54,216 nt of DNA, taken from NCBI GenBank assembly GCA_020445785.1, contig JAGRFZ010000060.1, positions 1 to 54,216 of the forward strand, read 5' to 3'. Under the pieces are notes generated by a model. The model was not told where the DNA came from. It searched no databases and was given only the letters and a program-made list of their open reading frames with translations. Both the position numbers and the translations under genes were made by a program. The stretch is from Rhodocyclaceae bacterium. Lineage in GTDB: Bacteria; Pseudomonadota; Gammaproteobacteria; Burkholderiales; Rhodocyclaceae. Of this stretch, positions 10,246-21,690 are shown one piece after another (position 1 is the first letter of the stretch; each line of letters begins with the position of its first letter).

Positions 10246-11139
10246 CTACAGGAGGTCGCCCAACTCGCCGTGCAATGCTTCGACCTCGCGCAGGCGCGCC
10301 CGTGCCCGCGCGCCCAACCGCTGCGCGAGCTGAGCGGAGAGATGATTGATCAGGCTGACGGCGGCGACGTAGCTGTCGAACATCGACGCACCCCGACAGT
10401 GGGCGCTCAGCACCCAGTGCGCATCACCGGCCAGTGCTGCGCCCGATGGATCGGTCAGTACCAGGGTCGGCGTGCGGGCGCGGCGCGCGATGGCCAGCGC
10501 CGCGGAAAAGGCCGGTACGCGGCGGCGGAAACCGACCGCGATCAGCACATCCTGCGGACCCAGCCCGGCCATGCCCTCGGCCAGGGTGGTGCCGTGCATG
10601 GGCGCCAACTCGACTCCGTCGCGCAGCATACCGAGCTGGCTACGCAGGTAGTCGGCGAGCAACGCGCTGTTGCGGTGGCCGATGACCAACAGCCGGCGGG
10701 CGCCGGCCATGGCCTCGACCAAGGAGGTCAGGGCCGCCCGGTCGATGCCGCCGAGGGTCTTGCGCAGGATGTCGATGTCGGCCGCAATGTGAGCGTCCAG
10801 ATCGTCGGGTTCGCCGCTGCCGGGCACGGCGTCGTCGAGATATACCGGCGAACCCCACTGGCGGGCGCCGCGCACGGCGGCGCGTGCGGCCGCGTAGGAG
10901 GGATAGCCGAGGCGCTGGATCAGTCTGGAGACCGCCGCCTTGCTGGCGCCGGCAAGCAGCGCCAGCTCGGTCGCCGAGTGGGTGGCGAGCTGGGCCGGGA
11001 AATTCAGCAGCAGGTCGGCCACCGGGCGCTCGCTGTTGGGCAGCGACTCGTAGCAGGCTGCCAGGCGACGCTCCAGATCGGGCCCGTCCGTGGTGGCATC
11101 GGCCTCGGCGCTGGGCGGGCTGGCACGTCGGTTGCTCAT
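10246..11139 (-). CDS. RpiR/MurR-type transcriptional regulator (HTH-SIS)
   Basis: 297-residue regulator with an N-terminal RpiR helix-turn-helix (about 25-100; ATELALLAGASKAAVSRLIQRLGY) and a C-terminal SIS domain (about 135-260; RLLVIGHRNSALLADYL), which normally binds a phosphosugar-like or other small ligand. It is transcribed away from a TRAP transporter and amidohydrolase operon, so it probably controls that operon in response to its substrate or a breakdown product. Two 30-bp direct repeats start 15 bases upstream of its ATG. In-frame GTG codons at 11148 and 11145 are alternative starts; ATG 11139 is preferred. Confidence 0.9.
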   Translation of the reverse strand: MSNRRASPPSAEADATTDGPDLERRLAACYESLPNSERPVADLLLNFPAQLATHSATELALLAGASKAAVSRLIQRLGYPSYAAARAAVRGARQWGSPVYLDDAVPGSGEPDDLDAHIAADIDILRKTLGGIDRAALTSLVEAMAGARRLLVIGHRNSALLADYLRSQLGMLRDGVELAPMHGTTLAEGMAGLGPQDVLIAVGFRRRVPAFSAALAIARRARTPTLVLTDPSGAALAGDAHWVLSAHCRGASMFDSYVAAVSLINHLSAQLAQRLGARARARLREVEALHGELGDLL

Positions 11140-11153
11140 GACCACCACGATGG

Positions 11154-11213
11154 CTGAAATTTTTGATTCAGTCTAGTGCTTTTCTGAAATTTGTGATCCA
11201 CTCTGGTGCATGG
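11154..11213. promoter_or_regulatory. Tandem 30-bp operator-like repeats, regulator–transporter region
   Basis: Two direct repeats with a period of exactly 30 bases: unit 1 at 11154-11183 (starts CTGAAATTTTTGATTCAG) and unit 2 at 11184-11213 (starts CTGAAATTTGTGATCCAC). They match at about 23 of 30 positions, with the core CTGAAATTTnTGATnCA. The patch is strikingly AT-rich against its surroundings. Sites of TGAAA/TTTCA type are common for RpiR-family regulators. A possible -35 (TTGATT, 11163-11168) and weak -10 (GAAATT, 11186-11191) for the transporter operon lie inside the repeats. Binding is inferred. Confidence 0.6.
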
Positions 11214-11264
11214 GTGGCCCGCGCCGGGTGCGCCTGCACCAGATTCGTGATCAGGAGCCGCCGC

Positions 11265-11798
11265 ATGCACGATGCGATGGAACTGGAGGGACTGGCCCGC
11301 CGCGCCGACCAGGCGAGCGCCACCCTGTGCCGCTGGGTGGACCGGATCTGCGTTGGCCTCATGGTCCTGCTCGTGCTCGATGTGTGGCTCGGCGTGTTCG
11401 CCCGCTACGTCGTGCCGCTGCCGATCACCTTCATGGAAGAAGCGGCCCGCTACCTGATGATCTGGGTTGCGCTGCTGGCGGTCTCGAGCGGCATCCCACG
11501 GCGGGAACACATCGGCGTGCAGATGCTGTTCGTCCATTTGCCCTCGTCGCTCCGCCGCTGGCTGTTGGGGCTGGCGGACGTGCTGGCAATCGCCTTTTTC
11601 GCGGTGTTGCTGTGGTACGGAATCGGCATGGTGGAGCGTGGCGGCCGGGTGGCTACGATGATCTACGGCATGTCCAAGGCGCTGCCCTTCGCCGCGGTGC
11701 CGGTATCGGCGGCGCTGGCGATGCTGCAGTTGCTGCTGGTGGCCACGCGCGATCAGGCACGGCTGTCGCGCAACCCCGACGTGGTGGTGTGCCCGTGA
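11265..11798 (+). CDS. TRAP transporter small membrane subunit (DctQ type)
   Basis: 177-residue integral membrane protein with four predicted helices (about 27-47, 62-77, 101-121 and 141-161), the topology of TRAP small subunits. RYVVPLPITFMEEAARYLMIWVALL is the typical DctQ segment, shown here in part by its EEAARYL core. It pairs with the large subunit to drive sodium-dependent uptake of a substrate delivered by the binding protein. AGGAG at 11253-11257 supports the ATG at 11265; an upstream in-frame ATG (11163) falls inside the operator repeats and is rejected. The large-subunit GTG overlaps its stop. Confidence 0.92.
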   Translation: MHDAMELEGLARRADQASATLCRWVDRICVGLMVLLVLDVWLGVFARYVVPLPITFMEEAARYLMIWVALLAVSSGIPRREHIGVQMLFVHLPSSLRRWLLGLADVLAIAFFAVLLWYGIGMVERGGRVATMIYGMSKALPFAAVPVSAALAMLQLLLVATRDQARLSRNPDVVVCP

Positions 11799-13087
11799 CC
11801 ATCGTCGCCCTCACCTTCGTCGTACTGCTGGTGATCGGCATGCCGATCGGCTACGTGCTGGGCCTGACCGGCGTCGTCGGCATGTGGAGCATCGGCTCCG
11901 GCGGGCGCTTCGTGAGCATGGCGCCCGACCGCTTCTTCGCCGGCCTCGATCTGTTCACCTTTCTCGCCATGCCCTTCTTCATCCTCGCCGGCGAAATCAT
12001 GAACCGCTCCGGCATCACCGACCGCCTGATCGGCCTCGCCAATGCCCTGGTCGGCTACCTGCGCGGCGGCATGGCCCATTCCAACATGCTGGCGTCGGTG
12101 CTCTTCGCCGGCCTCTCCGGCGCCGCCACCGCCGATGCCGCGGCCTTCGGCAACACATTGGTGCCGGCAATGCAGAAGGCCGGCTACAAGCGCCCCTTCG
12201 CCTGCGCCGTGACCGCCGCCGGGTCGATCATCGGGCCGACCATCCCGCCCTCCAACCTGATGGTCATCTACGGTTCCCTGATGGGGGTGTCGGTGGCCGG
12301 CCTTTTCGCCGCCGGCATTCTGCCGGGCCTGTTGATCTGCCTCGTCTGCATGGCGGTCATCGCGGCGCTGGGGCGGCGCCTGAAGCTGCCCAAGGCCGAA
12401 GGCCGGCCCAGCCTGGTGGGAATCTTGCGGGCGTTCAAGGACGGTCTCGCCGCGCTGGTGATGCCGGTGATGATCCTGGGCGCGATCCTCGGCGGCGTCA
12501 CCACGCCCACCGAGGCGGCCTCGCTGGCGGTGCTCTACGCGCTGGTGATGGGGGTCTTCGTCTATCGCAAGGTGGGCTGGACCGACCTCGTCGAGATGCT
12601 GGTGCGCACCGCGCACATCACCGGCGTGGTGTTCCTGATCATCGCCTCGGCCTCGATCGTGGGCTGGTGGATGACCTTCAACCAGATCCCGCAGGGGATC
12701 GCCACGGCCTTCCTCGCCGTGTCCGACGACCCCGCCGTGATCGTCGCGCTGATCCTCGCACTGCTGCTGGCGATCGGCATGTTCATGGACATCAACGCAT
12801 TGCTGATCATCCTCGCGCCGGTGCTGGCCCCGCTGACGGTGAGCATCGGCATGGATCCGATCCACGCCGGCATCATGATCGTGCTGGCGCTCAACATCTC
12901 GCTGATGACACCGCCGGTCGGCGCCTGTCTGTTCGTGCTGGCCTCGGTCACCGGCGAAAAAATCGAGCGCATCGCGCATTCGCTCTGGCCTTTCCTGGTG
13001 GCCGAACTGGCGGTGTTGCTGGTGGTGGCCTACTGGCCTTCGCTGACCCTCGCAATCCCTCGCCTGCTGGGCCTGACGCTCAACTGA
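11795..13087 (+). CDS. TRAP transporter large membrane subunit (DctM type)
   Basis: 430-residue permease subunit with about 12 hydrophobic helices. DctM hallmarks include IGMPIGYVLGLTG at the start, MPFFILAGEIMNRSGIT, LSGAATADAAAFG, IIGPTIPPSNLMVIYG, TPTEAASLAVLYAL and NISLMTPPVGACLFV. It starts with GTG overlapping the small-subunit stop (GTGA, 11795-11798). Together with the neighbouring small subunit and binding protein it forms a complete TRAP system. The substrate is not readable from this subunit; the downstream enzymes suggest a carbamoylated amino acid. Confidence 0.95.
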   Translation: MTIVALTFVVLLVIGMPIGYVLGLTGVVGMWSIGSGGRFVSMAPDRFFAGLDLFTFLAMPFFILAGEIMNRSGITDRLIGLANALVGYLRGGMAHSNMLASVLFAGLSGAATADAAAFGNTLVPAMQKAGYKRPFACAVTAAGSIIGPTIPPSNLMVIYGSLMGVSVAGLFAAGILPGLLICLVCMAVIAALGRRLKLPKAEGRPSLVGILRAFKDGLAALVMPVMILGAILGGVTTPTEAASLAVLYALVMGVFVYRKVGWTDLVEMLVRTAHITGVVFLIIASASIVGWWMTFNQIPQGIATAFLAVSDDPAVIVALILALLLAIGMFMDINALLIILAPVLAPLTVSIGMDPIHAGIMIVLALNISLMTPPVGACLFVLASVTGEKIERIAHSLWPFLVAELAVLLVVAYWPSLTLAIPRLLGLTLN

Positions 13088-13179
13088 CATGTCACACCGT
13101 CGGCCCCGATCCGATCCGTTTTCCCGCCGTGTGCCGCGATGCGCACGCCCGTTCCGTCCCTAGCCGTGGAGAATCCATC

Positions 13180-14214
13180 ATGAGTGTCCTCAAGAAGTTC
13201 ATCGTCGCCGCCGTCGCCGGCGCCAGCCTGCTGGCCACGCCGGCCATGGCGGAGAAGATCATCCGCCTCGCCCACCTCAATCCCGACAGCCCGTTCGACA
13301 GCCACTCGGGCGCAATGGCGGCGGTGTTCAAGAGCCTGGTCGAGACCGGCACCAACGGCGGCATCAGCGTGCAGGTGTTTCCCAACGGCCAGCTCGGCAA
13401 GGACGCGGAAGTGCTCCAGCAGGTGCGCGACGGCCTGGTCGAGTCGACCATCTCGTCGGCCGGCGGCATGGCGGCCCACTACCAGCCGGTCGGCGTCTTC
13501 GACCTGCCCTTCGCCTTTCCGGACATCGGCGTCGCCCACAAGGTGATCGACGCCAACAGCGATTTCGGCAAGAAGTTCTCGGCCGACCTCTCGGCCAAGA
13601 CCGGGCTGAAGGTCCTTGGGCTGCTCGACAGCGGCGGCTTCTTCGCGATCAGCAACTCCAAGCGCCCGATCAGGACGGTGGCCGATCTGGAGGCGATGCG
13701 CATCCGCACCATGACGCTGCCGACCCACGAGGCGACGATCCAGTCGCTGGGCGGCCAGCCGACACCGCTGCCCTGGGCCGAGGTCTACACCGCCCTGCAG
13801 ACCGGCGTCGCCGATGGCCAGATGAATCCGATCCCGATCATCGCCTTCGCCAAGTTCGACGAGGTCCAGAAGTACCTGTCGATCACCAACCACGTCATCA
13901 CGCCCTACATCTGGACGATGAACCAGGCCTTCTACGACAGCCTGACGGCGGAAGAACGAAAGGTCGTCGACATAGCGGCTGAAGTCGCGGTGGATGCCGG
14001 GCGCGGCATCTCCCGCATCATCGAGGCCTCGGACGAGAAGGGTCTGCCCAAACTCGGCAAGAAGATGGCGGTCAATGCAATCCCGCCGGCCGAATTGGCC
14101 AAGTTCGCCAAGGCCGCGCAACCCGCGGTGCGCAAGGTCATCGAGGAGCAACTCGGCGCCGACGGCGTGGCGATGCTCGACGCGATGCTGGCCAACATCG
14201 AAGCGGTCAAGTGA
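13180..14214 (+). CDS. TRAP transporter substrate-binding protein (DctP type)
   Basis: 344-residue periplasmic binding protein. Signal peptide: MSVLKKFIVA, a hydrophobic core, and cleavage after AMA at residue 24. The mature start EKIIRLAHLNPDSPFDSHSG and the segment QVFPNGQLGKDAEVLQQVRDG are DctP hallmarks. Arg in MRIRTMTLPTHEA is the residue that usually pairs with a substrate carboxylate, so the ligand is probably an organic acid or amino-acid derivative. A 92-base gap separates it from the large subunit. An AGCCGTGGAGAA ribosome site precedes the ATG. Confidence 0.95.
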   Translation: MSVLKKFIVAAVAGASLLATPAMAEKIIRLAHLNPDSPFDSHSGAMAAVFKSLVETGTNGGISVQVFPNGQLGKDAEVLQQVRDGLVESTISSAGGMAAHYQPVGVFDLPFAFPDIGVAHKVIDANSDFGKKFSADLSAKTGLKVLGLLDSGGFFAISNSKRPIRTVADLEAMRIRTMTLPTHEATIQSLGGQPTPLPWAEVYTALQTGVADGQMNPIPIIAFAKFDEVQKYLSITNHVITPYIWTMNQAFYDSLTAEERKVVDIAAEVAVDAGRGISRIIEASDEKGLPKLGKKMAVNAIPPAELAKFAKAAQPAVRKVIEEQLGADGVAMLDAMLANIEAVK

Positions 14215-14263
14215 TGGCAGCGGCGGCGGGCCCGGTAGCGCCCCGCTTCGCAGGAGGCAAGCT

Positions 14264-15487
14264 ATGACGAACATCGTCGTCGCCGAGGGCGCGTCGGCTT
14301 TCATGAACCCCCGGGCCGCCGACCGGGGCGCGGCCTACGGTGCGGCACGGTCCGCGATCCTGAACGCCGACGGCTTCGACCACGCCGAGGCGGCGATTGG
14401 CGACTGGCCCGACTACCGCGAGACACCGCTGCTCGCCTTGCCGGCGCTGGCCGGCCGGCTCGGTCTCGGCGCACTCGCTTACAAGGACGAGAGCGGCCGC
14501 TTCGGGTTGGGCAGCTTCAAGGCGCTGGGCGGCGCCTACGCGGTCTATCGGCTGATCGCCCGAGCCATCGCGGCGCGCCACGGCATATCGCCACCACGCC
14601 CTGCCGAGATTCTCGGCGGTCGCTACCGCAACGAGGTCGGCGGCATGACCGTCACCTGCGCCACCGACGGCAACCATGGCCGCTCGGTGGCCTGGGGCGC
14701 TCAGCTCTTCGGCTGCCGCTGCGTGATCTATATTCACGCCACGGTCAGCGAAGGCCGCCGCGCGGCGATCGCCCGCTACGGCGCCGACGTCGTTCGGGTG
14801 CCCGGCAACTACGACGACTCGGTCCGCCACGCCGCCGCCGAGGCCGAACGTAACGGCTGGACCGTGGTCTCGGACACCACCTACGAGAGCTATCGCGACA
14901 TTCCCATCGACGTCATGCACGGCTACGGCGTGATGGCCCGCGAGGTGCTACGCCAGATGCCCGAGCCGCCGACCCACGTCCTGGTGCAGGCCGGTGTCGG
15001 CGCCCTGGCCGCGTCGGTGTGCGCGGCCTTCTGGCTGGCGTGGGGGCCGGCGCGGCCACGCTTCACGGTGGTCGAGCCGGTCAACGCCGCCTGCCTCTAC
15101 CAGAGCGGCCTGGCTGGCCACCCGGTGGCCGTGCCCGGAGATCTCGACACGGTGATGGCCGGGCTGGCCTGCGGCGAAGTGTCGCCGGTGGCCTGGGAGA
15201 TCCTTTCGGCCGGAGCCGATGCCTTCGCCACGGTGGACGACGCCTTCGCGCTCGAAGGCATGCGGGTGTTCGCCGACCCGAGCGGTGGCGATCCCGCCAT
15301 CGTCTCGGGCGAGACCGGCGCTTCCGGGCTGGCACTGCTCCTGGCCACCGCCGACAGCGAGCCGATCCGCGAGGTGCTGGGCCTCGACGGCGGCAGCCGG
15401 GTGCTGCTGATCGGCAGCGAGGGCGACACCGACCCGGCGATCTACCGCCAGGTGGTCGGCCGCAGCGCGGACGAGCTGCGGCAATGA
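14264..15487 (+). CDS. dpaL: 2,3-Diaminopropionate ammonia-lyase
   Basis: PLP enzyme that converts 2,3-diaminopropionate to pyruvate and two ammonia. It has 407 residues, close to E. coli YgeX. The PLP lysine is Lys86 in GSFKALGG. TCATDGNHGRSVAWGA, VRVPGNYDDSVRHA, SDTTYESYRDIPIDVMHGYG and VQAGVGALAA match the family, including the glycine-rich phosphate loop. CAGGAGG at 14251-14257 defines the ATG. The stop overlaps the start of the M20 amidohydrolase, so it is coupled to carbamoyl-group removal. In E. coli, ygeX is also linked to amidohydrolase genes (ygeW, ygeY, hyuA). Confidence 0.93.
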   Translation: MTNIVVAEGASAFMNPRAADRGAAYGAARSAILNADGFDHAEAAIGDWPDYRETPLLALPALAGRLGLGALAYKDESGRFGLGSFKALGGAYAVYRLIARAIAARHGISPPRPAEILGGRYRNEVGGMTVTCATDGNHGRSVAWGAQLFGCRCVIYIHATVSEGRRAAIARYGADVVRVPGNYDDSVRHAAAEAERNGWTVVSDTTYESYRDIPIDVMHGYGVMAREVLRQMPEPPTHVLVQAGVGALAASVCAAFWLAWGPARPRFTVVEPVNAACLYQSGLAGHPVAVPGDLDTVMAGLACGEVSPVAWEILSAGADAFATVDDAFALEGMRVFADPSGGDPAIVSGETGASGLALLLATADSEPIREVLGLDGGSRVLLIGSEGDTDPAIYRQVVGRSADELRQ

Positions 15488-16719
15488 ATCCGGCCATCGA
15501 CCGTCGCCGGCTTCTCGACCGGCTCGATGCGCTGGCCGCCATCGGCCGCCAGCCGTCCGGCGCCTGCTGTCGGCTGGCGCTCACCGACGACGACCGCGCC
15601 GGTCGCGACCAGGTGGTGGCCTGGATGCGGGCACTCGGGCTGGCGGTGTCGATCGACCCGATCGGCAACATCTTCGCCCTGCGCGCCGGTCGGCGTCCCG
15701 AGCTGGCGCCGGTGATGACCGGCTCCCACATCGACACGGTGCGCACCGGCGGCGCCTACGACGGCAACCTCGGCGTGCTGGCCGGCCTGGAGGTGGTGGC
15801 GGCACTGAACGACGCCGCCATCGACACCGAGCGTGGCCTGGTGGTGGCGGTGTTCACCGACGAGGAAGGCGCCCGCTTCGCACCGGACATGCTCGGCTCG
15901 CTGGTCTTCGTCGGCGGGCTTCCGCTCGATCAGGCGCTGGCGATGCGGTCGATCGACGGCGCGATCCTCGGTGACGAGTTGCGGCGCATCGGCTACGCCG
16001 GCACCGCCCCACTCGGCGAGCCGCTGCCCCATGCCTTCGTCGAACTGCACATCGAGCAGGGCCCGGTGCTCGACGCCGAGGGATTTCGGATCGGCGCAGT
16101 CGAGGACCTGCAGGGCATCTCGTGGCAGGAGATCCGCATCCGCGGCCAGTCCAACCATGCCGGCACGACGCCGATGCGCCTGCGCCACGACGCCGGTCAC
16201 GCCGCGGCGGCGATCAGTTGCTTCGTGCGCGAGCTGGCCCGCGAGATGGGCGGCAGCCAGGTGGCCACCGTCGGCAAGGTGGACCTGGTGCCCAATCTGG
16301 TCAATGTCATCGCCGCCCAGGCCACGCTGACGGTGGACCTACGCAATACCGACGAGGCGCGGCTGCAGCAGGCGGAGGCACGGCTGGCCGGGTTCCTCGC
16401 CCAGTTGGCCGAGTCCGAGGGCGTCGACATCGCGTGCCGGCCACTGGCCCGCTTCGAGCCTGTGCGCTTCGATGGCGGCATCGCGGCGCGCATCGAGGCC
16501 GTCGCCGACCGACACGGCCTCGCCCGTCGGCGCATGACCTCGGGCGCCGGTCACGACGCCCAGATGCTGGCGCGCGTCTGCCCGACCGCGATGATCTTCG
16601 TGCCGAGCGTCGGCGGCATCAGCCACAATCCGGCCGAGCATACCGAGCCGGACGACCTGGTCGCGGGCGCCAATGTGCTGCTCGGCACGTTGCTCGATCT
16701 GTGCCACGAGGAGAACTGA
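15484..16719 (+). CDS. M20-family N-carbamoyl amidohydrolase (HyuC/allantoate type)
   Basis: 411-residue cytoplasmic dimetal hydrolase of the hydantoinase/carbamoylase subgroup of M20. This family includes N-carbamoyl-L-amino-acid hydrolase, beta-ureidopropionase and allantoate amidohydrolase. Metal ligands are visible: His82 (GSHIDT), Asp93 (YDGNLG), Glu127/Glu128 (FTDEEGARF), His189 (ELHIEQGP) and His386 (HNPAEHTE). The dimerisation domain carries NHAGTTPM. It starts at ATG overlapping the lyase stop. In this context it probably removes a ureido carbamoyl group to feed the lyase. Which family reaction it performs cannot be decided from sequence. Confidence 0.9.
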   Translation: MNPAIDRRRLLDRLDALAAIGRQPSGACCRLALTDDDRAGRDQVVAWMRALGLAVSIDPIGNIFALRAGRRPELAPVMTGSHIDTVRTGGAYDGNLGVLAGLEVVAALNDAAIDTERGLVVAVFTDEEGARFAPDMLGSLVFVGGLPLDQALAMRSIDGAILGDELRRIGYAGTAPLGEPLPHAFVELHIEQGPVLDAEGFRIGAVEDLQGISWQEIRIRGQSNHAGTTPMRLRHDAGHAAAAISCFVRELAREMGGSQVATVGKVDLVPNLVNVIAAQATLTVDLRNTDEARLQQAEARLAGFLAQLAESEGVDIACRPLARFEPVRFDGGIAARIEAVADRHGLARRRMTSGAGHDAQMLARVCPTAMIFVPSVGGISHNPAEHTEPDDLVAGANVLLGTLLDLCHEEN

Positions 16720-16721
16720 GC

Positions 16722-17657
16722 ATGTCCCGAATCATCACCGTCGGCGCCGCCCAACTCGGGCCGATTGCGCGCGAAGCCACGCGCAGCGCGGTGGTCGCGC
16801 GGCTCATCGCGCTGATCGAACAGGCGGCTCGCCACGGCTGCGATCTGGTGGTCTTCCCGGAGCTGGCGCTGACCACCTTCTTCCCGCGCTGGTACCTGGC
16901 CGATCAGGTCGAGGTGGACAGCTTCTTCGAGCGTCAGATGCCGGGCCCCGAGACCGGGGCGCTGTTCGACGCCGCGCGCCGCCTCGGCGTCGGCTTCTAT
17001 CTGGGCTACGCCGAGCTGGCCGAGGAGGGCGGCCGGACGCGCCATTTCAATACCGCAATCCTGGTGGACAAGCGGGGCGAGATCGTCGGCAAATACCGGA
17101 AGATCCACTTGCCCGGCCACGCCGAGCACGAGCCCTGGCGCCGCTTTCAGCACCTGGAGAAGCGTTACTTCGAGACCGGCAACCTGGGTTTCCCGGTGTT
17201 CCGCGCCTTCGGCGGAGTCCTCGGCATGGCGATCTGCAACGATCGCCGCTGGCCCGAGACCTATCGCGTAATGGGGCTGCAGGACGTCGAGATGGTGCTG
17301 ATCGGCTACAACACGCCGGTGCACAACCCCCCTGCGCCCGAGCACGACGACCTGTCCCAGTTCCACAACCAGCTGGTGATGCAGTCGGGCGCCTACCAGA
17401 ACGCCTGCTGGGTAGTCGGCGTCGCCAAGGCCGGCCTCGAGGAAGGCGTCGAGCAGATCGGCAACTCGATCATCGTCGCGCCCTCGGGCGAGATCGTCGG
17501 CCGCTGCACGACCCTCGGCGACGAACTGGCGATCGCCCGCTGCGACCTCGATCTGGGGCTGTCGTACAAGCGCTCGGTGTTCGACTTCGCGCGCCACCGG
17601 GAACCGCAGGCCTATCGCATGATCGTCGATCGCAAGGGCGCGACCCCTCCGCCGTGA
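16722..17657 (+). CDS. N-carbamoyl-D-amino-acid hydrolase, nitrilase superfamily
   Basis: 311-residue carbon–nitrogen hydrolase. The catalytic triad falls at Glu47 (FPELAL), Lys127 (KYRKIHLPG) and Cys172 (ICNDRRWPE), the same numbering I recall for the Agrobacterium D-carbamoylase. Family-specific runs TTFFPRW, MPGPE, QHLEKRYF and RWPETYRVMG are also kept, so the assignment to this subgroup is strong. It hydrolyses an N-carbamoyl amino acid to amino acid, CO2 and ammonia. It lies two bases after the M20 gene with its own GAGGAG site. Having both carbamoylase types in one operon suggests either both stereoisomers or two ureido groups are handled. No hydantoinase gene is present. Confidence 0.93.
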   Translation: MSRIITVGAAQLGPIAREATRSAVVARLIALIEQAARHGCDLVVFPELALTTFFPRWYLADQVEVDSFFERQMPGPETGALFDAARRLGVGFYLGYAELAEEGGRTRHFNTAILVDKRGEIVGKYRKIHLPGHAEHEPWRRFQHLEKRYFETGNLGFPVFRAFGGVLGMAICNDRRWPETYRVMGLQDVEMVLIGYNTPVHNPPAPEHDDLSQFHNQLVMQSGAYQNACWVVGVAKAGLEEGVEQIGNSIIVAPSGEIVGRCTTLGDELAIARCDLDLGLSYKRSVFDFARHREPQAYRMIVDRKGATPPP

Positions 17658-17928: not shown

Positions 17929-18711
17929 ATGAGCTACGAGACCATTCTGTACGACGTCACCGGCGGCGTCGCCGAGATCCGCTTCAATCGTCCGCACCGA
18001 CTCAATGCAGTGACCGGGCAGCTGTACGCCGAGTTCAACGACGCGCTCACGGTGGCCGAGGCCGATGGCGACGCGCGGGTCGTGATGATCACCGGAGAGG
18101 GCCGCGCCTTCTGCGTCGGCGCCGACTTGAAGGAGCACAAGGCCGGACGTACTGCCTTCGACCGGCGCCAATACCTGCACGGCGAGCAGATCGTCTGCAA
18201 GCGCCTGCTGCAAATGAAGAAGCCGGTGGTTGCCGCGGTGAACGGCTTCGCGTTGGGGGCCGGTGCCGAGGTGGCGCTGGCATCGGACTTCCTGCTGATG
18301 GCCGACAACGCCCAGATCGGCTTGCCCGAGGTCAGCATCGGCAATTTCCTCGGCGGCGGCGTCACCTGGCTGCTGCCGCGCCTGGTGGGGCTGGCCAAGG
18401 CGCGCGAGCTGGTGTTTCTCGGCGAGCGCATCGGCGGCGAGGAGGCGGTGCGGATCGGGCTCGCCAACCGGGTCTTTCCGGCCGAGGGCTTCGTCGACGC
18501 GGCCAGGGAGTTCGCCCTCAGGGTCGCCGCCAAGGCGCCCTTCTCGATGCAGCTGGCGAAGGAGCAGCTCAACATGTCGGCCGAGCGCACGCTCGACGCC
18601 TGCCTCACGGCGGAGCTCGAAGGCATGACCTTCGTCGGCACTACGCGCGACTGGCAGGAGGGCGTCGATGCCTTCGCCGAGAAGCGCGCACCGGTCTTCA
18701 AGGGGGAGTGA
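17929..18711 (+). CDS. Enoyl-CoA hydratase/isomerase family protein (1)
   Basis: 260-residue crotonase-fold enzyme. The oxyanion-hole segments are AFCVGADLKEH and NGFALGAGAEVALASDF. Both glutamates that act in classical enoyl-CoA hydratase have counterparts, in GAGAEVAL and LPEVSIGN, so a hydratase reaction is plausible. AGGAGGA precedes the ATG at 17929. The NDP-forming CoA synthetase starts one base after its stop, so the genes are co-transcribed. A 271-base gap separates it from the carbamoylase operon, so it may be a separate unit. The acyl group is unknown. Confidence 0.92.
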   Translation: MSYETILYDVTGGVAEIRFNRPHRLNAVTGQLYAEFNDALTVAEADGDARVVMITGEGRAFCVGADLKEHKAGRTAFDRRQYLHGEQIVCKRLLQMKKPVVAAVNGFALGAGAEVALASDFLLMADNAQIGLPEVSIGNFLGGGVTWLLPRLVGLAKARELVFLGERIGGEEAVRIGLANRVFPAEGFVDAAREFALRVAAKAPFSMQLAKEQLNMSAERTLDACLTAELEGMTFVGTTRDWQEGVDAFAEKRAPVFKGE

Positions 18712-18712
18712 C

Positions 18713-20902
18713 ATGACCTGGATTCTGAGGGGCTTCACCGAGCCGAGCCCATTGCACGACTTTCTCGCGCCGGACTCGATCGCCATCGTCGGCGCCTCGT
18801 CCGATCCCACCAAGCGGGGTTACAAGGCCATGGTCGGGCTGATCAAGGACGGCTACCGGGGTCGGATCTACCCGATCAATCCGAAGGCCGACATGATACT
18901 CGGCGTCAAGACGCTGCCGTCGATCTCGGCCTTGCCGGAAGCGGCCGACCTGGCCTTGATCTGCACCCCGGCCACGAGCGTTCCCGGTCTGCTGCGCGAG
19001 TGCGGCGAAAAGGGCGTCAAGGGCGCGGTGATCCTCGCCAGCGGTTTTCGCGAAACCGGCCGGCCGGAGGGTATACAGCTCGAGAAGGATCTGCTTCAGG
19101 CCGCGCGCGAGGGCAATGTGCGCGTCATCGGGCCCAACACTTCGGGCATGTTCAACCTGCACAAGAAGGTCAATCTGCTGGCGCTGGCCAACATCAAGGC
19201 CGGCGACATCGGCTTCATCTCCCAGTCGGGCAACATGCTGCTGTCGCTCGTGCTGGAGGCCGAACACAATGGTCACGTCGGCTTCTCGACCTATGCCGGT
19301 CCAGGCAATCAGACCGACATCGGATTCAACGACTATCTGCGCTACCTCGGTGAAGACCCCAACACCCGGGTCGCGACACTGTACGTGGAGGGTTTTCGCG
19401 ACGGCCGGCGCTTTCTCGACATGGCCCGCCAGGTCACCGAGATGAAGCCGGTGGTGGTGTACAAGTCGGGGGCCACGGAACAAGGTCAGAAGGCGGCCGC
19501 CTCCCACACCGGGGCGCTGGCCGGCAGCTACGAGATGACCGTCGATGTGTTGCGCCAGGTCGGTGTCAGCGTGGTGCAGAACTCCGACGAGATCCTGCCG
19601 GTGGCCGAGGGCCTGGGCCTGCTCCAGCAGGCGCGGGGCAAGCGGGTGGCGGTGGTCTCCGACGGCGGCGGCCAGGCCACGATCGCCTCCGACCGCCTCG
19701 CCGAGGCCGGCGTCGAACTGGCCCAGATCTCCGACACGACACGCCAGCGGCTGGCCGAGATCCTGTTCCCGCAGGCCTCCCTGGCCAACCCGATCGACGT
19801 CGCCGGTACCAGCGATTCCGATCCCGCCGTGCTCGCCAAGTGCATGGAGATCGTCGCCGAGGACGACAACGTGGACGCGATCTTTCTGGTCGGCATGTTC
19901 GGCGGCTACTACCTGCGATTCGCCGAAGACCTGCTGGGCAGCGAGATGCGCGGCGCCGAATCGATGATCGAGTTGTGGCGCAGCTGTCGCAAACCGCTGG
20001 TGATCTACAGCCTGTACGAAGCCATCCGCCCGCCCGCCCTGCGGCGACTCCACGAGGCCGGACTACCGGTGTACGCCTCCCTGGAGAATGCCGTTCGGGT
20101 GATCGCAGCACTGGGCGAGCGCGGCATTTTCCTTGCCGCCGACCACGACAAGAACATCGTGCCGGCGGCCGATCCGAAGCCCGAGCTGCAGGCCGCCTTC
20201 GCGACCGCGCGCGAGCACGGTCGCGACCTGCTCGAATACGAGGCCAAGGCCCTGCTGAAAGGCCACGGCGTCCATGTGGCGGACGAAGTGGTCGCGCGCA
20301 GCGCCGACGAACTGGCCGACGTCGCGGCACGCTTCGGCCAACTTCCCCTGGTGATGAAGGTGGTGTCGAAGGACATCCTGCACAAGTCTGACGCCGGCGG
20401 CGTCAAGCTCGCGCTGCAGGGCGAGCAGGCGCTGCGCGACGCCTACGCCCAGATCCTGTCGTCCTGCCGCAGCTACAAGCCGGACGCCGACATCGAAGGC
20501 GTGCTGGTGACGCCGATGGCGCGGCGCGGCCTGGAGGTGATCATCGGCGTCATGCGCGATCCGATCTTCGGCCCGGTGCTGATGTTCGGCCTCGGCGGCA
20601 TCTTCGTCGAGATCCTCAAGGACGTGACCTTCCGCGCGATCCCACTGTCCCGCTACGACGCCCGCTCGATGGTCGAGCAGATCAAGGCGAGCAAGGTGCT
20701 GAAGGGCGTACGGGGCGAGGCTGCGGTGGACAAGGAAGCGCTGGTGGACCTCCTGCTGAAGATCTCCAGCATCGTCGAGGCCTACCCGGAGATGGCCGAA
20801 CTCGATCTCAACCCGGTAATCCTCTACAGCGATGGCTACGCGGTGGTGGACGCCCGGGTCATCGTCGATCGTGCCGACGGCGACGCCAAAGGAGCCCACT
20901 GA
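18713..20902 (+). CDS. NDP-forming acyl-CoA synthetase (single-chain Acd type)
   Basis: 729-residue fused enzyme that makes an acyl-CoA from acid, CoA and nucleotide triphosphate through a phosphohistidine, releasing NDP and phosphate. Domain order: CoA-binding Rossmann (about 20-140; IAIVGASSDPTKRGYKAM), succinyl-CoA-ligase-like (about 155-300), a linker domain, and ATP-grasp (about 500-725; LPLVMKVVSKDILHKSDAGG). The phosphorylated histidine is His265 in ASHTGALAGS, and SQSGNML is also conserved. It is flanked by two crotonases; its stop overlaps the second (TGATG). Some aryl/hydroxycinnamate CoA synthetases belong to this family, so a propenoic or phenylpropenoic acid substrate is possible. 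Confidence 0.92.
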   Translation: MTWILRGFTEPSPLHDFLAPDSIAIVGASSDPTKRGYKAMVGLIKDGYRGRIYPINPKADMILGVKTLPSISALPEAADLALICTPATSVPGLLRECGEKGVKGAVILASGFRETGRPEGIQLEKDLLQAAREGNVRVIGPNTSGMFNLHKKVNLLALANIKAGDIGFISQSGNMLLSLVLEAEHNGHVGFSTYAGPGNQTDIGFNDYLRYLGEDPNTRVATLYVEGFRDGRRFLDMARQVTEMKPVVVYKSGATEQGQKAAASHTGALAGSYEMTVDVLRQVGVSVVQNSDEILPVAEGLGLLQQARGKRVAVVSDGGGQATIASDRLAEAGVELAQISDTTRQRLAEILFPQASLANPIDVAGTSDSDPAVLAKCMEIVAEDDNVDAIFLVGMFGGYYLRFAEDLLGSEMRGAESMIELWRSCRKPLVIYSLYEAIRPPALRRLHEAGLPVYASLENAVRVIAALGERGIFLAADHDKNIVPAADPKPELQAAFATAREHGRDLLEYEAKALLKGHGVHVADEVVARSADELADVAARFGQLPLVMKVVSKDILHKSDAGGVKLALQGEQALRDAYAQILSSCRSYKPDADIEGVLVTPMARRGLEVIIGVMRDPIFGPVLMFGLGGIFVEILKDVTFRAIPLSRYDARSMVEQIKASKVLKGVRGEAAVDKEALVDLLLKISSIVEAYPEMAELDLNPVILYSDGYAVVDARVIVDRADGDAKGAH

Positions 20903-21690
20903 TGGATACCCCCGCCCTGACCGACGCGACGCTTGCGATCGACGGCGGCGTCGCCACCCTCACCTTCGAGCGCCACGACGTGCGCAACGCCCTGACCGGC
21001 ACCGGGCTGATCGACGACATCGTCGCCGTGGCGCAATGGGTGAACGCCGGCGAGGCGATCTCGGTGCTGGTCCTGACCGGCGCCGGTTCGGCCTTTTCGG
21101 CCGGCGGCAACGTCAAAGACATGGCCGAGCGCGGAGGCGATTTCGCCGGCGAGGTTGCCGAGTGCGCAGATCGCTACCGCCGCGGCATCCAGCGCATCCC
21201 GCTGGCGCTGCAGGAGGTCGAGGTGCCGGTCATCGCGGCGGTAAACGGCCCGGCCATCGGCGCCGGCTGCGACCTCGCCAACATGGCCGACATCCGCATC
21301 GCCTCGACGCGGGCCAAGTTCGGCGAAACCTTCCTCAACCTGGGCATCATTCCCGGCGACGGCGGCGCGTGGCTCATGCAGCGCCTGATCGGTTACCAGC
21401 GCGCCTTCGAACTGACCCTTTCGGGCCGCATCATCGATGCCGCCGAGGCCCTGCAGTACGGCATCGCGATGGAAGTGGTCGAGCCCGATCGGTTGCTGCC
21501 CCGCGCCCACGAACTCGCGGCCCGCTTCGCCGCCCAGCCGCCCAAGGCACTGCGGCTCACGAAGCGATTGATGAAGATGGCGCAGCGCATGGAGCTGAAG
21601 GACTTCCTCGACCTGTGTGCGGTGTTCCAGGGCATGTGCCACAACGAGGCCGAGCACCTCGATGCGGTCCGGCGCTTCCTCGACAAATAG
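20902..21690 (+). CDS. Enoyl-CoA hydratase/isomerase family protein (2), divergent site
   Basis: 262-residue crotonase-fold protein with intact oxyanion-hole segments (SAFSAGGNVKDM and GPAIGAGCDLANMADI). The two classical hydratase glutamates are not kept: the first position is Asp (GAGCDLA) and the second is occupied by Phe (FGETFLNLG). An isomerase, lyase or other crotonase reaction is therefore more likely than simple hydration. The start overlaps the synthetase stop, so the three genes 17929-21690 form one unit. A perfect 18-base palindrome follows 24 bases after the stop. Confidence 0.9.
   Translation: MDTPALTDATLAIDGGVATLTFERHDVRNALTGTGLIDDIVAVAQWVNAGEAISVLVLTGAGSAFSAGGNVKDMAERGGDFAGEVAECADRYRRGIQRIPLALQEVEVPVIAAVNGPAIGAGCDLANMADIRIASTRAKFGETFLNLGIIPGDGGAWLMQRLIGYQRAFELTLSGRIIDAAEALQYGIAMEVVEPDRLLPRAHELAARFAAQPPKALRLTKRLMKMAQRMELKDFLDLCAVFQGMCHNEAEHLDAVRRFLDK

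Follow-up and report, generated by a model that had tools for sequence, protein, structure and literature searches.

The window analysed here is a stretch of 54,216 nucleotides (nt) from a Rhodocyclaceae bacterium (assembly GCA_020445785.1, contig JAGRFZ010000060.1, positions 1 to 54,216). It carries an operon for a TRAP transporter, a pyridoxal phosphate (PLP)-dependent 2,3-diaminopropionate ammonia-lyase (DAPAL), an M20 carbamoylase and a nitrilase-type N-carbamoyl-D-amino-acid hydrolase (D-carbamoylase), with a divergent gene for a regulator of the RpiR family beside it. The last three enzymes, called the trio below, recur together as a module that is real, conserved and, by its gene content, catabolic, and its substrate is probably a carbamoylated diaminopropionate. 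The protein families, the intact active sites, the fixed gene order and a common operator-like motif are established from the sequence.

In the route that we infer, along with its substrate, its stereochemistry and the assignment of each enzyme to a ureido group, the TRAP system would import ring-opened D-2,3-diureidopropionate, the D-carbamoylase would strip the 2-ureido group and the M20 enzyme the 3-ureido group in the manner of a beta-ureidopropionase, and the lyase would cleave 2,3-diaminopropionate to pyruvate and ammonia, so that growth would gain one C3 unit and four ammonia. The operon would be switched by RpiR through a tandem palindrome between the regulator gene and dctQ. The chances that this particular compound is imported and degraded in this way are about even.

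Conservation of the enzyme trio

Set A consisted of the best 80 of 113 loci from a lyase scan of genome contigs; gathered by similarity to the window lyase, it is biased to close kin and over-represents Burkholderiales. Set B was an even sample of the Pseudomonadota, with 43 stretches holding a strong lyase match from 41 other genomes (at E 1e-80 the lyase matched in 11 of 369 and in 32 of 398 genomes, both figures including the window's genome). Together with nine plasmid loci this gave 132 loci, the window not counted. The trio was found in 54 of them (49 in set A, 3 in set B, and the plasmid loci L104 and L109), always in the order lyase, M20, nitrilase and on one strand, and such a recurrence of three enzymes in fixed order is not due to chance. 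A further trio locus, from R. daejeonense (L175), stands outside the 54. With starts placed approximately, the lyase and M20 genes are separated by 10 nt or less, or overlap, in 36 of the 54 loci, and the hosts belong to the Burkholderiales, Rhodocyclaceae, Hyphomicrobiales and others.

Loci that end too close downstream (23 of 80 in set A, 6 of 43 in set B) were omitted when the hydrolases were counted. Among the 57 remaining loci of set A, both hydrolases follow the lyase in 42, the M20 only in 2, the nitrilase only in 1 and neither in 12; the two hydrolases are therefore kept together. The corresponding figures for the 37 loci of set B are 3, 10, 2 and 22. Judged by these neighbourhoods, the trio is a minority of lyase loci overall and a tight unit within part of the lyase family. 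In the lyase tree the 55 trio rows fall into two forks (21 of 31 rows with a support of 85, and 34 of 53 with a support of 100), and none is among the other 47 rows. This was a quick tree with long branches, built from matches of at least 200 bits and at least 330 residues, and it does not establish a joint origin of the two forks. Within the genus of the window a lyase of at least 81% identity is present in 3 of 6 genomes, and no close match was found in 31 further genomes of the family, a patchy presence that suggests lateral movement or loss.

Identity and active sites of the enzymes

The lyase passes TIGR01747 (329 bits, cut-off 274) in addition to the model given in Table 1. Its residues K86, D135, H138 and D204 align with K77, D120, H123 and D189 of YgeX, where H123 and D189 are presumably catalytic, and the catalytic residues are invariant in the 56 rows that cover them, YgeX included. 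K77 and D120 are named as catalytic residues of YgeX (PMC4000059). The predicted step to pyruvate and ammonia follows from the enzyme family.

The 11 best solved relatives of the nitrilase (more than 380 bits, E at most 2.4e-115) are all N-carbamoyl-D-amino-acid hydrolases; it passes no curated NCBIfam model. It holds the Cys-Glu-Lys triad E47, K127 and C172 plus N173, R176 and H144, and the catalytic residues are invariant in 54 of 54 covering rows, one further row being incomplete. The triad, N173, R176 and H144, and the pocket residues (H144, P199) were defined in a study of D-carbamoylase which reports many accepted side chains and, in its Table 1, no activity on two L-compounds (PMC11503299). 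The catalytic and pocket residues checked are identical between trio and non-trio D-carbamoylases. A further group of residues is common to the trio nitrilases (L12, E137, W139, F142, H201, P206 and H208), and at each of these positions another residue stands in 9 to 12 of the 12 non-trio D-carbamoylases; several are close in sequence to the pocket residues H144 and P199, which fits a D-carbamoylase that may be dedicated to one side chain. When the trio nitrilases share a tree with 12 non-trio D-carbamoylases, only 2 label changes are required (rows of up to 250 residues entered the residue counts but not the tree).

The second-best solved relative of the window M20 is 5thw (368 bits), which contains N-carbamoyl-beta-alanine (PMC10952681). 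E127, Q192, R287 and H381 of the window enzyme are E131, Q196, R291 and H385 of the R. radiobacter N-carbamoyl-beta-alanine amidohydrolase, if a six-residue offset between paper and chain numbering is assumed, which fits all four. The latter residues are described as those that bind the carbamoyl and carboxylate groups in beta-ureidopropionase (PMC10952681). The catalytic residues of the M20 are invariant in all 55 covering rows. Allantoate deiminase (AllC) was rejected as the identity of this M20 (TIGR03176, 282 bits against a cut-off of 598); the broader "allantoate amidohydrolase" subfamily models are passed, and no YgeY model was matched by the window M20 at E 0.001. Its identity is 55–69% to eight M20s of lyase clusters with an Lrp regulator and 32–44% to four M20s adjacent to non-trio D-carbamoylases, a hydantoinase accompanying three of these; the bond of the M20 is therefore with the lyase.

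A preliminary description of this DNA had claimed the TRAP system, the lyase, the M20, the nitrilase and the divergent RpiR, all of which are present by gene calls and family models. The residues that it named, Lys86 of the lyase and E47, K127 and C172 of the nitrilase, lie at exactly those positions in the alignments, and the M20, for which it had claimed all metal ligands, keeps its catalytic and binding residues.

The regulator and its candidate operator

Of the loci examined, 22 have an RpiR homologue near the trio. Between RpiR and dctQ the window holds two 26-nt direct repeats, 85% identical and 30 nt apart, each of them an imperfect palindrome of the form TGAAA-N7-TYCA. Of the 22 RpiR-trio loci, 11 have the pattern TGAAA-N5..9-TTTCA no more than 300 nt from the start of RpiR; over 200 dinucleotide shuffles of these stretches the count averaged 0.035 and never exceeded 1 of 22, and the reversed pattern gave zero matches. 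In the 36 lyase loci that bear a nitrilase but have no RpiR close by, the pattern was absent from the 400 nt upstream of the lyase.

The operator-like motif thus recurs beside the trio in other genera. Its tandem form is present exactly once in each of the genomes G000, G002, G004 and G501, always beside the trio, and has no second copy in the window's genome; it was not found in G001 and G003, congeners without a close lyase, or in G144 and G670, where the trio has a single motif. Two set A loci (L023 and L024) appear to come from the same genomes as G004 and G002, having identical operator letters, and are not independent of them. The tandem motif argues that the regulator, which would bind there, is tied to this one operon. 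Since it stands at one place, no distant gene would share this form of control, a statement about the tandem form, as single sites were not searched genome-wide.

Substrate and alternative readings

The preliminary description had proposed a carbamoylated 2,3-diaminopropionate, for example albizziine (albizziin) or 2,3-diureidopropionate, as the substrate. A single catabolic unit with its own transporter for such a compound is supported, but albizziine alone fits less well because it would need one carbamoylase, and D-2,3-diureidopropionate would suit the two carbamoylases better. In work with E. coli and C. difficile enzymes, the conversion of 2,3-diureidopropionate via albizziin and diaminopropionate to pyruvate was shown in 2025: with purified enzymes, ureidomethyl-hydantoin was opened by HyuA and gave albizziin with UacY or YgeW, albizziin was turned into pyruvate by YgeY and YgeX, and YgeX was equally active on both diaminopropionate isomers (PMC12507026). 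Which ureido group is removed first, and whether the configuration is R, is described as still open (PMC12990295).

There is no hydantoinase in the window operon. In the window's genome, a 4.58-Mb assembly that is 89% complete, and in five congeners the D-hydantoinase model TIGR02033 has no match over its cut-off; for SsnA (TIGR03314) the best score in the window's genome is 141 bits against a cut-off of 455, and none of 10 genomes is over it. Import of the open chain would therefore be the simplest reading, and a complete urate pathway in the window's genome was rejected, no SsnA being over the cut-off in this 89%-complete assembly. The argument from the missing hydantoinase, made already in the preliminary description, holds for this genome but describes a local feature, as a dihydropyrimidinase lies by the trio in three Hyphomicrobiales, Rhizobium sp. 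ACO-34A (L104), R. daejeonense (L175) and Martelella alba (L088), alongside a polyamine-type ABC system. The L104 protein passes TIGR02033 (534 bits, cut-off 393) and the L088 protein is 85% identical to it. A hydantoinase beside the trio in these three relatives at the same time counts in favour of the substrate proposed here. A TIGR02033 hydantoinase over the cut-off was also found in 2 of 10 genomes (G274 and G670, both with the lyase), on a contig other than that of the lyase. For YgeW there were zero hits at 1e-15 in the loci of 89 relatives; the window's genome was not searched for it.

Several observations weigh against the degradation of D-2,3-diureidopropionate by this module. The lyase family evidently works elsewhere as well, the trio being present in 3 of the 43 set B loci and neither hydrolase in 22 of 37; the narrower lyase model TIGR03528 stays below its cut-off (357 against 532 bits), and no position of the lyase alignment separates trio rows from non-trio rows. 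No motif was detected in 11 of the 22 loci with RpiR and the trio, and no RpiR lies near the other 36 lyase loci that bear a nitrilase. M20 carbamoylases are promiscuous, one of them taking alpha, beta and gamma ureido acids (PMC10952681). Finally, lyase-free D-carbamoylase clusters (L106, L168 and L174) hold both carbamoylase types and a hydantoinase, so that the pair could serve two enantiomers and not two ureido groups.

This pairing in hydantoinase-bearing clusters speaks for a substrate with one carbamoyl group, such as racemic albizziine or N2-carbamoyl-diaminopropionate, whose D and L forms would be split between the carbamoylases while the lyase takes both, as YgeX does (PMC12507026); hydantoin-racemase-type genes occur within the stretch of 4 of the 49 set A trio loci. 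We regard this as unlikely, albeit the most serious competitor, since single losses would be expected oftener than they are seen (both hydrolases are kept in 42 of the 45 set A loci having either), and there is no racemase in the window operon.

It is less probable again that acyl groups are removed, from N-acetyl, N-formyl or N-oxalyl diaminopropionate or from a D-peptide-like compound, which would make the carbamoylase names too narrow. Of the 49 set A trio loci, 24 have a D-aminoacylase (1rjp-like) within the stretch and 23 an oligopeptide-type binding protein, and the closest M20s compared sit in Lrp-type lyase clusters, often with an aminoacylase-type M20D enzyme. The D-carbamoylase catalytic and pocket residues are invariant, however, and the D-aminoacylase query has no real match in the window's genome (best E 8.3e-5), for which reason this enzyme was also rejected as a necessary part. 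The trio-linked D-aminoacylase recalls UacY (Amidohydro_3), the C. difficile enzyme that cleaves the 2-ureido group and was itself assigned by analogy to D-aminoacylases (PMC12507026); the two are likened by description, and in this respect the D-aminoacylase counts for the main reading as well.

General salvage of N-carbamoyl amino acids or beta-ureidopropionate, with the lyase as a D-serine or generic beta-elimination enzyme, draws on the breadth of M20 enzymes of this type, one of which takes alpha, beta and gamma ureido acids (PMC10952681), and of D-carbamoylases towards side chains (PMC11503299), but is improbable in view of the constant gene order, the close association with a lyase that has the YgeX catalytic residues, the trio-specific conserved loop residues of the D-carbamoylase and the tandem operator at one place only.

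The removal of two ureido groups from D-2,3-diureidopropionate might have a wider setting. Tentatively, and with some doubt, the module may be an alternative, non-orthologous version of the lower half of reductive urate catabolism, carried by Proteobacteria outside the known anaerobic urate degraders and consuming the D-2,3-diureidopropionate that these release.

Operon layout and transporter

The features are listed in Table 1. All three TRAP subunits (DctPQM) score above the cut-offs of their family models (TIGR00786, TIGR00787 and PF04290). The genes had been described as joined mostly by overlapping starts, which is right for the dctQ/dctM and lyase/M20 junctions (overlaps of 4 nt, the second being ATGA) and nearly so for M20/nitrilase (a gap of 2 nt), whereas gaps of 92 nt between dctM and dctP and of 49 nt between dctP and the lyase gene set these genes apart. 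The next gene, for an enoyl-CoA hydratase at 17929, begins 271 nt past the nitrilase end, and among 83 loci, some of them short, its homologue gave one weak match, in L098, which lacks the M20 and the nitrilase. Because of this gap and of the lack of trio-linked recurrence, we take the operon to end at 17657, and the enoyl-CoA hydratase and acyl-CoA synthetase genes (17929-21690) were rejected as members. A scan for promoters and terminators gave no signal above shuffled sequence.

Table 1. Features of the operon and its regulator in the window.
Feature	Position	Strand	Basis
MurR/RpiR-family regulator (HTH_6 + SIS)	10246..11148	-	family models; divergent from operon
Candidate RpiR operator, two 26-nt direct repeats	11154..11209	no strand	repeat comparison in the RpiR-dctQ gap
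TRAP small permease DctQ	11265..11798	+	PF04290, 85 bits
TRAP large permease DctM	11795..13087	+	TIGR00786, 397 bits (cut-off 268); GTG start
TRAP solute-binding protein DctP	13180..14214	+	TIGR00787, 202 bits (cut-off 175)
Putative 2,3-diaminopropionate ammonia-lyase (DAPAL), PLP	14264..15487	+	PRK08206, 509 bits (cut-off 276)
M20 metal-dependent carbamoylase, beta-ureidopropionase-like	15484..16719	+	PRK09290.1-3, 477 bits (cut-off 452); TIGR01879, 406 bits (cut-off 204)
Putative nitrilase-superfamily N-carbamoyl-D-amino-acid hydrolase	16722..17657	+	PF00795; solved relatives, the best being 8i99, 431 bits

TRAP genes accompany the trio in 9 of 52 loci of sets A and B: 6 of 49 in set A (L023, L024, L026, L039, L070 and L081) and 3 of 3 in set B (L120, L131 and L133); in L121 the stretch ends after TRAP, lyase and M20. 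The six-gene order of the preliminary description is hence conserved in its enzyme trio but seldom in its transporter, and TRAP was rejected as a defining feature, in spite of the set B loci. The binding proteins of ABC systems in the set A trio stretches are of the oligopeptide type (23 of 49), the polar amino-acid type (9 of 49) and the polyamine type (2 of 49). Going by these gene neighbourhoods, the transporter is a swappable part and most trio loci use ABC types. The window DctP is 55–93% identical to the DctPs of ten lyase-linked TRAP loci. The nearest solved structures are 4p47, 4ngu and 4n8g, and the ligand of the latter two we take to be D-Ala-D-Ala, which counts for the acyl reading above. 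A structure model of DctP (11 sequences) had a mean predicted local distance difference test (pLDDT) score of 69, falling below 50 over residues 173-239, and was used for the overall fold match alone.

Neighbouring genes and related clusters

Just after the operon, an enoyl-CoA hydratase, an ADP-forming acyl-CoA synthetase and a second crotonase (17929-21690) form a separate tight cluster. The closest public relatives of the window's genome are Rhodocyclaceae metagenome-assembled genomes, and a search of this genome with PF02738 (molybdenum (Mo)-hydroxylase) gave two matches.

In the Ferrovibrio locus L092 and in L099, which is closely related to it, a ureidoglycolate-lyase-like gene immediately precedes the trio and a hydantoin-racemase-type gene lies downstream. 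Upstream (L092:1-15652) there are also a Mo-hydroxylase, a branched-chain-type ABC transporter, and FAD monooxygenase-like and acyl-CoA ligase-like genes; the cluster is possibly a longer ring-degradation pathway ending in diaminopropionate. Downstream of the trio in L104 (9980-15733), on the opposite strand, lie a Mo-hydroxylase large subunit, a 2Fe-2S protein and a HutH-like aromatic amino acid lyase, and in L095 (3317-4816) a second, distant PALP-fold protein of 499 residues directly follows the trio.

Other lyase clusters have a different make-up. L111 (8878-17447) and L135 combine the lyase with Lrp, an EutA-like protein (TIGR02990, 244 bits, below the cut-off of 318), a DoeB2-like M20, an M24-type peptidase and TRAP, and look like ectoine utilisation rebuilt around diaminopropionate. 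The Azospirillum brasilense plasmid locus L110 (5584-14435) holds Lrp, RidA, a hydro-lyase, a gamma-glutamyltransferase, the diaminopropionate lyase, an ArgE/DapE-type deacylase and TRAP, and might serve for gamma-glutamyl or acyl diaminopropionate. On four plasmids (L105, L108, L169 and L170) the D-carbamoylase adjoins an XRE regulator, a protein with an adenine-deaminase C-terminal domain and an alanine racemase, which is, from its gene content, another unexplained natural setting of D-carbamoylases.

Comparison with known systems

D-carbamoylases are used industrially together with hydantoinases. In 2012 the role of hydantoinases in nature was described as still unclear (PMC3546935). A D-carbamoylase clade that is locked in order with a lyase, and whose amino acid product is thereby fixed, opens the matter of natural function to direct tests. 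If the reading proposed here is true, one clade of an industrial enzyme family would have a natural role, reductive urate breakdown would have a second way to completion, and an importable intermediate would provide a cross-feeding link between anaerobic producers and other consumers.

Ectoine-utilisation clusters (eut/doe with TRAP) likewise feed a diamino-acid derivative through TRAP to a deacylase and a PLP lyase, but they act on diaminobutyrate derivatives with other enzyme families. The Lrp-type DAPAL-M20-M20D clusters of Pseudomonadota (L138, L141, L142, L143, L145, L146, L149, L152 and L154) have the same lyase family with a related M20 adjacent; they differ from the window in having Lrp instead of RpiR and an M20D/DoeB2-like enzyme instead of the D-carbamoylase. 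The hyu clusters with a D-carbamoylase (that of Aminobacter, PMC3546935, and L106, L168 and L174) share the D-carbamoylase and an M20 carbamoylase, with an ABC transporter in L106 and L174 and RpiR in L168, whereas the window has no hydantoinase and its lyase defines the amino acid released.

Closest in chemistry is the lower half of the reductive uric acid pathway (HyuA, YgeW/UacY, YgeY, YgeX), which also takes two groups off a 2,3-diaminopropionate core and ends, as here, with the same lyase family and pyruvate (PMC12507026). In the window the nitrilase D-carbamoylase and an M20 of the hydantoinase/carbamoylase type replace YgeW/UacY and YgeY, a dedicated importer and RpiR are added, and no SsnA or hydantoinase above the cut-off is found in the genome. 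The preliminary description had known of no transporter-linked pathway of this make-up. Neither the make-up nor an assay of its substrate was found described among the matches listed in the open-access literature searched, whereas its chemistry has the 2025 precedent (PMC12507026). As far as its genes tell, the module parallels the published anaerobic chemistry, and it is a distinct variant by virtue of its enzymes, its importer, its regulator and the operator-like motif.

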